A stretch of DNA of 64,000 nucleotides from a virus, in IMG/VR virus record IMGVR_UViG_3300024351_000023, positions 1-64,000 of that record; one strand, 5' to 3'. The first letter of the stretch is position 1, and each line of letters starts with the position of its first letter. The notes under the pieces were generated by a model. It was given only the letters and a program-made list of their open reading frames with translations. It did not search any database and was not told where the DNA came from. Shown here in pieces: positions 6,587 to 54,408 of the stretch. The position numbers and the translations under genes were made by a program.

Positions 6587-7024
6587 TTACCCTAGTCCAG
6601 CGTTAAATCTCATAAATTCAATTGCATTCTTGATTTGATATGTTCTATTTTGAATCATTTTTAAAATGCTTTCAATATAAACAAGCATAGTGTCATAATA
6701 ATCTATTTTCAAACAAACAGTTGACAATTTTTCATCGGCATCCAAATATTTTTGCATAGTGTCTTTATCCCTGATTTTTTTGGGAAATGGATTTTCCACA
6801 TAAACATCAGGATCTGCCTTCCCAGAATAGTATTCATATCTTTCATGTCTAATATTTCTTTTTTGTTGTTCTGCTTTTTTTCTCAACAAAAAAATGGTAT
6901 TGTATAGATCAAAATATTTTGCGTGAAGGATGGGAATATTTGTAGATTCCGTATGAAGATTATCCATGTCAATTTTGGAGTCCTGCTCCCACATTTTTTG
7001 AATAGTATCAAGATCAAAACTCAT
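6587..7024 (-). CDS. uvsY: UvsY recombination mediator
   Basis: Loads the UvsX recombinase onto gp32-coated single-stranded DNA. The 145 residues match T4 UvsY (137 aa) at several points: RHERYEYYSGKADPD against the T4 LDYYSGRGDGD, KYLDADEKLSTVCLKIDYYDTML against the T4 LSADKDVLKVDTSLQYW, and the C-terminal TYQIKNAIEFMRFNAG. Start overlaps the gp3-like stop by 4 bases (ATGA). UvsX itself is not in the window. Confidence 0.95.
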   Translation of the reverse strand: MSFDLDTIQKMWEQDSKIDMDNLHTESTNIPILHAKYFDLYNTIFLLRKKAEQQKRNIRHERYEYYSGKADPDVYVENPFPKKIRDKDTMQKYLDADEKLSTVCLKIDYYDTMLVYIESILKMIQNRTYQIKNAIEFMRFNAGLG

Positions 7025-18071: not shown

Positions 18072-19718
18072 TTACATATACTCCCACATGTAAGATCTAT
18101 CCCCATATTCATCTACGAACCATCGATCGCCATCCGAGTCAACAAAACTTTCATTATCTAGACCATCAGATATAAACCCAAAAGGCGACATATCCTGTTC
18201 AATTTGATTTTTTTGTTCTTCATATAGTCTTTTTCTTACATCTTGATCCGTAAGTTCTTTAAAATAGTCTTGAGCAACCAACCAGGCATAAATGACCAAA
18301 CACATTGCAAGGTCATCATTGCATCCTTCTTCTGCTTCAAATGAATTATGTTTTTGAATAAAAGTGGTTAGCTCACTAATTATTTCATAGTCATTTAAAT
18401 ATAATTTATTTTCTTCAATCATAGTCTTTAAATTAAGACATCCAACTTTTTTTACAGTTTTAGACATCTTAACGCCTAGTTGAGTTTTCTTTCCAGAAAA
18501 ACCTTGCCCTACAATTTGACCCGCTCTACCTCTCATAGAGCACATAAGCAAATTATTATATTCTAAATCGTATTGAAGAATACTTGCAACTTGATCTCCA
18601 ACATCATTTACTTCACATAAAATATATGCACTATTATATGCCACTGCTGTTTCCTGAATGATGCTTGGGAAGAGCATTGGTTTTATTTCATTGTTTCTAT
18701 ATTTTGCAACAACTTTATGTGGAAATTGTGTTATATCAACTACGGTGAAGGCAGAATAATCATTTCCAACACCTCTAGCAACATCAACAGTAATTAAATA
18801 ATCATGATTTTCTTCTGGATCAACATAAACATCCAACCCAGCACTACGTGTTTTGGGATGATCATAAACTAAAGATCTCAGTTTGCTTGGTGCAATAAGA
18901 GTATCAACAGACCCTAAAAATTCACATTCAAACTCAACTTTGAATTGTTGTTCACTTGTATTTGCAATAGTCTGGGCTTTCCATGCTTCGTCTCTACCTG
19001 GAACTTCCGACCAATGAACATCAGTGAAAACATATTCATTTTTACCTTTCTCTGCATCGTGCCACATTCGGTAGAAATGATTCATACCATGTGGAGTAGA
19101 AACTATAATAACTTTAGTTTGTTTACCAGAAGTAATTGTTGGATATACCGAGGCAAAGAATGAGTCTGCAATATGATTTGGAACGAACGCAAATTCGTCC
19201 AAGAATAGAATGTTAAATGACATTCCTCGAACAGCAGAAGCTGATGTAGATGCTGCTAAAATCTTGGAACCATTCTCAAGTTCTAGAGAACCTTTATTCC
19301 AAGATATAATTCCTTGCTGCATCCACTTGGGTAAGTTTTCATAAGCGGTCTGTAACCTATCTAGGAGCTCCCTGGCAGTCGCTGCTTTGTTTGCAAGGAT
19401 ACCTATGTTAACATTGTCGTTAAACACCGCATAGTGGAGCAGGAAAGACACTACGGTAGTTGACTTACCTGTTTGCCTAGGCATCTTACAGATATTAAAT
19501 CTGTGGTTATGGAAATTATTAATTAATTTCTCTTGGAAGTGATATGGTTTAAAAGTTTGTAAACCATGATCCAAGGTCACAATTTTTACATAATTATTTG
19601 CAAAATAAACTGGGTCATCCTTACACTTAACAAATTCAAGAATTTGTTCTTGGGTAAATTCAATTGGCGTATTTGCTTTTTTTAGAAGCGGATTACCAAG
19701 ATAAACATCATTTGACAT
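18072..19718 (-). CDS. 17: gp17 large terminase (packaging ATPase and nuclease)
   Basis: Motor that cuts concatemeric DNA and pumps it through the gp20 portal. Walker A RQTGKST at residues 81-87, Walker B ILFLDEFAF near 175, and the RNase H-like nuclease domain from about 300, with TVDVARGVGNDYSAFTVVD (catalytic Asp) and EVNDVGDQVASIL. The 548-residue length is slightly shorter than T4 gp17 (610). It follows the 662-aa mosaic protein by 15 bases, so the terminase pair is separated by that inserted gene. Confidence 0.98.
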   Translation of the reverse strand: MSNDVYLGNPLLKKANTPIEFTQEQILEFVKCKDDPVYFANNYVKIVTLDHGLQTFKPYHFQEKLINNFHNHRFNICKMPRQTGKSTTVVSFLLHYAVFNDNVNIGILANKAATARELLDRLQTAYENLPKWMQQGIISWNKGSLELENGSKILAASTSASAVRGMSFNILFLDEFAFVPNHIADSFFASVYPTITSGKQTKVIIVSTPHGMNHFYRMWHDAEKGKNEYVFTDVHWSEVPGRDEAWKAQTIANTSEQQFKVEFECEFLGSVDTLIAPSKLRSLVYDHPKTRSAGLDVYVDPEENHDYLITVDVARGVGNDYSAFTVVDITQFPHKVVAKYRNNEIKPMLFPSIIQETAVAYNSAYILCEVNDVGDQVASILQYDLEYNNLLMCSMRGRAGQIVGQGFSGKKTQLGVKMSKTVKKVGCLNLKTMIEENKLYLNDYEIISELTTFIQKHNSFEAEEGCNDDLAMCLVIYAWLVAQDYFKELTDQDVRKRLYEEQKNQIEQDMSPFGFISDGLDNESFVDSDGDRWFVDEYGDRSYMWEYM

Positions 19719-52355: not shown

Positions 52356-52499
52356 TTAGTTTGTAGCCGCATTATATATCAGAACTATCAAAAATCCAAC
52401 GGGGAGGAATACAATTTTTCCCATTGTCTTTGGATATCTGATCATCCACCCCGCAAGAATAACTCTCCAGAAATTCCAGTATGGCGTAGATCTTCTCAT
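52356..52499 (-). CDS. Small membrane protein, 47 aa
   Basis: Start chosen at the ATG at 52499 (MRRSTPYWNFWRVILAGWM), which overlaps the stop of the preceding 38-aa gene (ATGA); a longer in-frame extension to 52541 only reads that gene in another frame. Residues 30-45 (IVFLPVGFLIVLIYNA) form one transmembrane segment, with a first amphipathic or membrane-touching helix at 8-22. Similar tiny membrane proteins ending IYNAATN occur in cyanophages; role unknown. Confidence 0.72.
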   Translation of the reverse strand: MRRSTPYWNFWRVILAGWMIRYPKTMGKIVFLPVGFLIVLIYNAATN

Positions 52500-52612
52500 T
52501 TTTTCTTTTTGCGTTTTCTCGAAGCATTCTTTTGGGCACAAGTTCTTCCCGCACCTTTTGCTTTGTTCTTATTAGGGCGACTTTTACCGTTCTTATGAAT
52601 CCATCCAAACAT
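52496..52612 (-). CDS. Tiny basic protein, 38 aa
   Basis: Frame from the ATG at 52612: MFGWIHKNGKSRPNKNKAKG, ending ASRKRKKKK. It has a strong CGGAGGT ribosome site eight bases upstream and overlaps the membrane-protein gene by 4 bases, which is why I accept it despite its size. Half the residues are basic. No known function. A competing 98-aa frame (52372-52668) lacks such a ribosome site and overlaps both genes. Confidence 0.65.
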   Translation of the reverse strand: MFGWIHKNGKSRPNKNKAKGAGRTCAQKNASRKRKKKK

Positions 52613-52703
52613 TTGAAATACCTCCGGAAAATTTTTATGCGTTTGATACTTATAGGTCGATTTGTCACCTCTGTAGGTTAGGGTAGTTTGCTTTTTTTAA
52701 TAA

Positions 52704-52724
52704 GGGGGGGGGGGCGCAACGCCC
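52704..52724. repeat. Run of 11 G with adjoining GC hairpin
   Basis: Plus strand: eleven consecutive G (52704-52714), then a hairpin GGGCG-CAA-CGCCC (52712-52724). In a roughly one-third GC genome this is a striking island. The rest of the 52613-52819 gap is AT-rich and holds no convincing gene. On the transcribed strand it lies in the leader of the 38-aa gene and would read as a C-run. Confidence 0.8.
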
Positions 52725-52819
52725 GCTTATAATAATAACAAACAACATAAAATCGCTGCTAATTCACTATACTGTCAAATCACGAATGTCGATATAAAGA
52801 ATTAACAACTCACAAAGTA

Positions 52820-53792: not shown

Positions 53793-53966
53793 TCACCATC
53801 TGTCAGGTACACTTAGGTCTTCAACATAAGCATCACACTTCTCTGCAGGTTCCAACTTGAATAACTTCTCCCAATCAATCTGATGTGGGTCGAAGTCACC
53901 GAACACTGATAGATCCAGAGTGATCCTATAACGCTGCTTCTGTGCTTGACTGTATGCTACTGACAT
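53793..53966 (-). CDS. Conserved small protein, 57 aa (FNPHQIDWEKLFKLEP type)
   Basis: From the ATG at 53966: MSVAYSQAQKQRYRITLDLS, then DFDPHQIDWEKLFKLEPAEK and YVEDLSVPDRW. I recall this as a highly conserved cyanophage microprotein; its function is not known to me. It has its own strong sigma70 promoter, with a GGAGCG ribosome site, and is the only gene of its transcript before the repeated element A. Confidence 0.8.
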   Translation of the reverse strand: MSVAYSQAQKQRYRITLDLSVFGDFDPHQIDWEKLFKLEPAEKCDAYVEDLSVPDRW

Positions 53967-53994: not shown

Positions 53995-54023
53995 ACTATA
54001 AGATGCCTGTGAGAACTTGTCAA
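53995..54023 (-). promoter_or_regulatory. Strong sigma70-type promoter for the 57-aa gene
   Basis: Minus strand: perfect TTGACA (54023-54018), 17-base spacer, TATAGT (54000-53995). It also has an ATAAATA late-type core just upstream (54041-54035). It diverges from the plus-strand promoter at 54098-54126. Confidence 0.85.
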
Positions 54024-54030
54024 GTCCTGT

Positions 54031-54095
54031 GGGGTATTTATGAGCGAGTGGTGGATTTATGTGGGGGATGTGTGGGGATTTTGTGACGCTGGGGG
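54031..54095 (+). other. G-rich stretch between divergent promoters
   Basis: The plus strand has four runs of four or five G (near 54031, 54063, 54073, 54091) within about 65 bases and very few C. It separates the two divergent promoters. It could form a G-quadruplex or favour R-loop formation; that is inference. Confidence 0.6.
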
Positions 54096-54097
54096 TA

Positions 54098-54126
54098 TTG
54101 ACATTTGTGCGGAGTGCTGATATAAT
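54098..54126 (+). promoter_or_regulatory. Perfect consensus sigma70 promoter on the plus strand
   Basis: TTGACA (54098-54103), 17-base spacer, TATAAT (54121-54126), matching the bacterial consensus at all twelve positions. It points away from every annotated gene, toward the 33-bp repeats and AT-rich DNA. No convincing plus-strand gene follows, so the product would be a non-coding RNA or an origin primer. Confidence 0.9.
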
Positions 54127-54150
54127 GCACGGTAAGATCACAAGGTCTGA

Positions 54151-54236
54151 GCACATTTATAAGCACATAAGTACAAGACCTCAGCACATTTATAAGCACA
54201 TAAGTACAAGACCTCAGCACATTTATAAGCACATAA
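54151..54236 (+). repeat. 33-bp tandem repeat, 2.6 copies
   Basis: Units begin at 54151, 54184 and 54217. Each starts GCACATTTATAAGCACATAA and ends in GTACAAGACCTCA; the third is truncated. Within a unit GCACAT occurs twice (GCACATtTATAAGCACATAA). The copies are identical where they overlap. Frames across the repeat on either strand are open only because 33 is a multiple of three. The unit lies directly downstream of the plus-strand promoter. Confidence 0.95.
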
Positions 54237-54239
54237 ATG

Positions 54240-54380
54240 GGTCTTAATTGATACTAATTCTTATCATTATCACCTTTTAATAACAATAATTATCAGAGAA
54301 TAAAAACACGCATATACATTTAAAAATACATTTTTAATTGATTTTATATCATTTTATCGTTATATTGTATTAAAAAGCAT
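54240..54380. other. AT-rich gene-free segment
   Basis: About 140 bases, more than 75% A+T by eye, between the repeat array and a minus-strand terminator. No frame of interest on either strand. It has the character of an easily melted DNA-unwinding element. Confidence 0.6.
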
Positions 54381-54408
54381 AAAAAAGAGAGGGATTTGTT
54401 CCCTCTCT
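54381..54408 (-). terminator. Strong terminator of the 55819-54414 operon
   Basis: Minus strand stem AGAGAGGGA/TCCCTCTCT (9 bp) with a 5-base loop and a run of T residues, six bases after the stop of the 58-aa gene. Read from the plus strand the stem is the same but lacks a T-run. Confidence 0.93.

Follow-up and report, generated by a model that had tools for sequence, protein, structure and literature searches.

We describe a conserved non-coding element of T4-like cyanophages, and comparison among relatives indicates that the locus carrying it in the window (the whole stretch of 64,000 nucleotides analyzed here) is probably a phage replication origin, one copy of an origin element found throughout the family Kyanoviridae. 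The element has a conserved order of parts, namely a promoter (in the clade of the window), a start box with the first transcribed unit, a module and an AT-rich core, which in sequence terms reads [TTGACA...] - box GCTWAGATNACAA - GCACATTTA - exchangeable module - AT-rich ATACATTTTTAAT core. How replication begins in these very abundant phages is an open question, on which the review PMC2984593 gives only the predicted theta origin of Syn9; the element is mapped here in named cultured phages (Syn9, S-PM2, S-SM2, S-RIM8 and S-RSM4), and the origin assignment is thus directly testable.

Organization of the locus in the window

The window derives from a 77-kb IMG/VR virus record that is nearest to the T4-like cyanophages of the Kyanoviridae. 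Among its ORFs of at least 150 aa, 27 are on the minus strand and 1 is on the plus strand, so that the remark in a first-pass annotation, made from the sequence alone, that every gene lies on the minus strand is nearly true. The locus comprises the following features:

53793-53966, minus strand: conserved 57-aa gene (PHROG 12516), which points away from the element; a neighbor, not a part of the element in all phages
53995-54023, minus strand: divergent sigma70 promoter (11/12), serving the 57-aa gene; a 10-12/12 minus-strand match lies upstream in 70/70 relatives
54035-54041, minus strand: T4/cyanophage late promoter ATAAATA (TATTTAT on the plus strand), within the G-rich stretch
54029-54096, plus strand: G-rich spacer separating the divergent promoters, seen in the sequence
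54098-54126, plus strand: consensus sigma70 promoter TTGACA-17-TATAAT, reading into the element; 9-12/12 in 58/58 unique relatives
54132-54143, plus strand: conserved box GTAAGATCACAA (GCTWAGAYNACWA) where transcription is predicted to start, the part most widely shared between clades
54140-54238, plus strand: three head-to-tail copies of the 33-nt unit ACAAGGTCTGAGCACATTTATAAGCACATAAGT, copies 2 and 3 being 88-91% identical to the first
54248-54295, plus strand: exchangeable module of type B, TTGATACTAATTCTTATCATTATCACC...TTAATAACAATAATTATCA, in the slot of the DnaA boxes in other phages
54312-54346, plus strand: conserved AT-rich core ATATACATTTAAAAATACATTTTTAATTGATTTT, candidate DNA-unwinding element
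54386-54408, minus strand: intrinsic terminator belonging to the opposing minus-strand operon; the element ends here

The perfect plus-strand promoter with a 17-base spacer that had been pointed out in the first-pass annotation was confirmed; it has an extended TG and is the sole 12/12 sigma70 match on both strands of the 64 kb (spacers of 16-18), against a mean of 0.15 expected from dinucleotide shuffles of the window. The second strong promoter, diverging on the minus strand at 54023-53995, holds up with an 11/12 match, and the 2.6 exact copies of a 33-bp unit were recovered by Tandem Repeats Finder (54150-54236, period 33, 100% match). As described, about 140 bases of AT-rich DNA then lead to the opposing terminator (54408-54386, minus strand); A+T is 81% at 54241-54380, a value equalled by only 0.03% of the 140-nt stretches of the window.

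The ATAAATA at 54041-54035 (minus strand), inside the G-rich stretch, is a late promoter of the T4 type; the cyanophage late promoter motif is NATAAATA (PMC2984593), and the motif is present upstream in 70/70 relatives, at a typical distance of 61-63 nt from the plus-strand -35. The G-rich stretch itself contains at least four runs of three or more Gs in only 31/70 relatives, and DNA folding of this stretch yielded nothing. A small plus-strand ORF at 54059-54247 was rejected as a gene on inspection, given that its start codon is upstream of the predicted transcript and that the length of this region varies among relatives.

Conservation of the element among relatives

The 57-aa neighbor protein was chosen as the anchor for the comparison, being independent of the DNA motifs. 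The best 80 of 438 IMG/VR relatives identified through this protein were kept, and further loci were obtained by a second scan with the Bellamy protein and from GenBank phages, for a comparison set of about 290 IMG/VR and GenBank loci. The 70 non-redundant protein-anchored loci were additionally selected for the start box and for a promoter matching at 8/12 positions or more, and promoter conservation is better judged from the first set (best 80 of 438), which has 58 unique intergenic regions. In all 58 of these, the plus-strand promoter matches the consensus at 9-12 of 12 positions, and nearly all continue with AAGATCACAAG...GCACATTTA or a sequence very similar to it. Downstream of the start, the first unit is present in varying copy number; a variable module and an AT core similar in sequence to ATACATTTTTAATTGATTTT follow, and the opposing operon usually terminates after these. 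The AT core belongs to the most AT-rich 0.5% of 80-nt stretches in 6/7 complete genomes; it has the A+T content and the conservation expected of an unwinding element, a role for which it is a candidate.

The exact 33-bp unit was found in only five IMG/VR records, in which the element sequence is identical to that of the window, and the copy number of the first transcribed unit differs between relatives. By this comparison, the repeat arose locally, through duplication of the conserved transcribed unit. The suggestion that it provides iterons accordingly fails, conserved direct repeats of the kind that define an iteron origin being absent: it is a lineage-specific tandem duplication rather than a conserved initiator array. 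Aligning the intergenic region of relatives, which had been proposed as a check, thus showed conservation of the promoter within the clade of the window and not of the exact repeat.

The element was not recognized in S-CAM7, S-CAM9, S-B05 and RN05-S, and P-TIM68 contains a pair of DnaA boxes with only a fragment of the remainder; both observations count against the origin reading. In S-B05 and P-TIM68, the 57-aa gene has another location and is not accompanied by the element. Because it is found without the element in several phages, the 57-aa protein is not favored as the initiator.

Distribution across the Kyanoviridae

The non-coding element was identified in at least 16 named cyanophages across the family and is present in the clade of the window, Bellamy, S-SM2, S-BM3, S-8S55, Syn9, S-PM2, S-RIM8 and others. 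Its neighbors vary (S-8S55, S-SCSM2R, S-BM3, Syn9, S-PM2, S-RIM32, S-RIM8 and others), and it mostly occupies unannotated gaps. The S-PM2 query matched 72 records, 68 of them named Synechococcus, Cyanophage or Prochlorococcus phages, and the Syn9 query matched 195, including 176 so named; the two sets overlap in part, and the matches outside named cyanophages are probably due to chance. Eight matches were inspected (S-RIM32, S-RIM44, S-CAM1, S-RSM4, S-CAM4, Syn19, S-RIM8 and S-SSM4), all of which have the start box followed by AT-rich DNA; seven lie in an unannotated gap, the element of Syn19 being overlapped by a short annotated ORF, and six contain DnaA boxes. In most records that have a start box AGATNACNA...CATTWA, it lies at the element and has few matches elsewhere; the reversed pattern, used as a control, seldom occurs.

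In the S-PM2/Syn9 clade, the consensus promoter is not recognizable, and the spacer after TTGAC[AT] is shortened. The box GCTWAGAYNACWA (54132-54143 in the window), the most conserved sequence of the element, coincides in one clade with the predicted start of transcription and, in the other, lies at the would-be -10 relative to a -35-like TTGAC. The Syn9 element lies at about 52.57-52.60 kb, that of S-PM2 at about 19.25 kb and that of S-SM2 at about 58.1 kb. In the S-PM2/Syn9 clade, short genes and tRNA features have been annotated across the element (Syn9 gp86 and gp87, 52477-52797; S-PM2, 19177-19333), and these annotations may be spurious.

DnaA boxes and exchangeable modules

The sequence TTTTCCACA is the DnaA-box consensus of cyanobacteria (PMC3480399, PMC4674748). 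In about a third of the protein-anchored relatives, the module consists of 1-4 copies of this box, in both orientations. At least one exact box is present within 280 nt after the start box in 25/70 loci and at least two in 20/70, amounting to 50 boxes in 70 x 280 nt vs 2 in the remaining 313 kb of these loci; in the larger set, which was partly selected for boxes, there are 119 vs 0.7 in shuffles. In the complete or long records, there is a single cluster of boxes, within or adjacent to the element, and it accounts for 4 of the 6 boxes of the genome in G001, 2 of 3 in S-SM2 and 2 of 4 (a pair) in Syn9; S-PM2 has 3 boxes in 34 bp and S-BM3 2 in 33 bp (TTWTCCACA). Clusters of 3/3 and 3/4 boxes also occur in G007 and G006, respectively; the surrounding element was inspected in the five genomes listed before these. 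No such cluster was found anywhere in the available sequence of phages with other modules (G000, G003, G004, G005, G012, Bellamy and SynMITS9220M01). One 284-kb record (G002, IMGVR_UViG_3300027541_000009) carries two elements with DnaA-box clusters, at 28.5-30.3 kb, where the boxes are upstream of the promoter, and at 239.0-239.2 kb, and is either a chimeric assembly or a phage with two origins.

A cluster of DnaA boxes adjoining AT-rich DNA, as in oriC, is thus seen in relatives and not in the copy in the window, where the only TTTTCCACA is at position 6792; this absence counts against the origin interpretation. The window and its close relatives have other modules in its place (TGATACTAATTC...TATCATTATCA, or TTATTGAGAAT repeats). 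Among the 70 loci, type A (DnaA) was assigned to 24, type B (TGATACKAATTC...TATCATTATCA) to the window and 10 others, and type C (TTATTGAGAAT, in an inverted arrangement) to 15, with mixed signatures (AC, BC) in 2 and none of the three types in 18, some of which share another repeat-like sequence. Module types differ even between phages with a 95% identical neighbor protein, and one swap recurs in the second clade (S-PM2/Syn9), where S-RSM4 carries type C, TTATTGAGAA, exactly at the slot of the DnaA boxes of its relatives, so that A and C look functionally equivalent. In DSL-LC03, the AT core is flanked by type C on one side and by DnaA boxes on the other. Most simply, the different modules would serve a common function through different binding proteins. 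The module at 54248-54295 is the probable initiator site of the window. No convincing candidate was found for a phage gene that tracks module type A, B or C, which counts against an origin and leaves host proteins, or a phage protein shared by all, as the potential binders.

Two further sequences in the module slot were noted. TTGGGTAGTATCCA occurs there in both Bellamy and S-CAM4, which belong to different element clades, and is a possible fifth module type. Within module C (L078 and relatives), TTATTGAGAATGATTATCAATAA is similar in sequence to a Fur-type 7-1-7 box; the 19-nt core of this module is frequent in genomes of Firmicutes, Shewanella and SAR11, and no cyanobacterium appears among the titles of the 80 listed matches.

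Alternative explanations

The initial proposal of an origin composed of a promoter and AT-rich unwinding DNA is, apart from the role given to the 33-bp repeat, the reading best supported by the comparison, with DnaA boxes at the same place in relatives and conservation of the AT core and the transcribed start. The main alternative had been a regulatory RNA. In this reading, a small RNA would be made from 54133 on, its repeats would bind, for example, an mRNA or a protein of host or phage, and the AT-rich tail would end it. The strong, conserved promoter faces no gene in the window, the first ~30 transcribed nucleotides are conserved, and non-coding RNAs such as CfrI exist in cyanophages (PMC9964418); nevertheless, the case for an RNA was weakened by the comparison and we consider it unlikely. 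Neither a conserved structure nor a known family was detected: Rfam returned no family above the gathering score, with two sub-threshold chance matches, and the suggested folding of the transcript gave z = -1.25 for the window and a mean z of -1.16 on this strand vs -1.47 on the opposite strand in 70 relatives, with no strand-specific signal. Furthermore, the transcribed region varies in length, repeat number and middle part, no terminator was detected on the plus strand, and an RNA leaves the DnaA boxes unexplained.

In a second explanation, the locus is a decoy that titrates host DnaA and other host DNA-binding proteins, slowing host replication or altering host regulation, and does not start phage replication. 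Clusters of binding sites can indeed serve titration or regulation, which counts against an origin, and both the exact host-type boxes and their swap for other modules resembling protein sites, such as the Fur-like one with its 19-nt core in many bacterial genomes, would suit a decoy. Titration is nonetheless quite unlikely, as 2-4 boxes are few, and they are strictly co-located with a very AT-rich core and a promoter, in one copy per genome. That the conserved early promoter is instead an expression platform for exchangeable plus-strand cargo genes, inserted into the AT-rich DNA, appears very unlikely: a GIY-YIG-like gene follows directly on the plus strand in 5/49 relatives, and a 2OG-Fe(II) oxygenase gene does so in S-8S55, but 43/49 relatives have no downstream ORF of at least 90 aa, though the element is conserved, and homing endonucleases would be expected to insert here in any case. 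The GIY-YIG-like endonuclease genes (L018, L051, L057, L061 and L071; Pfam GIY-YIG confirmed for the L018 protein) place a homing endonuclease at a probable origin. A packaging or recombination hot spot could account for a portable, mostly single-copy, non-coding element, and yet is highly improbable, since it leaves the DnaA boxes unexplained and T4-like phages package headfuls, with no strong fixed site.

Proposed mechanism and implications

If the element is an origin, host DnaA would bind the module in the DnaA-type phages and help melt the AT-rich core, and another protein would act likewise at the TGATACTAATTC...TATCATTATCA sites of the window. Plus-strand transcription through the core would aid opening by forming an R-loop, by analogy with T4 oriF and oriG, where the R-loop also supplies the leading-strand primer, as it possibly does here. 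The gp41/gp61 primosome of the phage would then load at the opened core, with a later switch to recombination-dependent replication, as in T4. As the S-PM2/Syn9 clade lacks the consensus promoter, transcription may have an auxiliary rather than a central role and may not be required everywhere. GC skew, raw and detrended, follows the coding strand in 7 complete genomes and gave no clear signal.

The element also suggests that T4-like cyanophages depend on the host initiator DnaA, a dependence that the review of T4 replication (PMC3016281) does not mention. More broadly, we give roughly even chances to a scheme in which these phages have one family-wide origin whose plug-in module brings in DNA-binding proteins of the host (DnaA in many lineages, others elsewhere), so that lineages exchanging modules would switch initiators, unlike T4 with its several origins that have no motif in common.

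Comparison with known replication origins

T4 oriF and oriG consist of a promoter and a downstream AT-rich unwinding element (PMC3016281), and the present element, in a phage of the T4 supergroup, likewise has a promoter that reads into AT-rich DNA; the promoter is directly upstream in the window and in 58/58 unique relatives, and not in the S-PM2/Syn9 clade. The T4 origins, however, share no sequence motif, and oriF and oriG use middle (MotA) promoters (PMC3016281), whereas here the sequence is conserved across the family and many members have DnaA boxes. Cyanomyoviruses lack motA (PMC2984593), and the promoter in the window is not of the MotA-dependent middle type, having a consensus sigma70 -35. 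T4 oriE, with an early promoter and direct repeats (PMC3016281), resembles the locus in its early-type promoter and evenly spaced short direct repeats, but the 33-bp repeat of the window is lineage-specific and not the conserved part. With cyanobacterial oriC, the element shares, in many relatives, clustered TTTTCCACA boxes beside AT-rich DNA; it differs in having only 1-4 boxes and no adjoining dnaN, in the other module of the window, and in belonging to a lytic phage with its own replisome. Finally, a single origin is also what has been predicted for the T4-like cyanophage Syn9, in the form of a theta origin (Weigele 2007, cited in PMC2984593).
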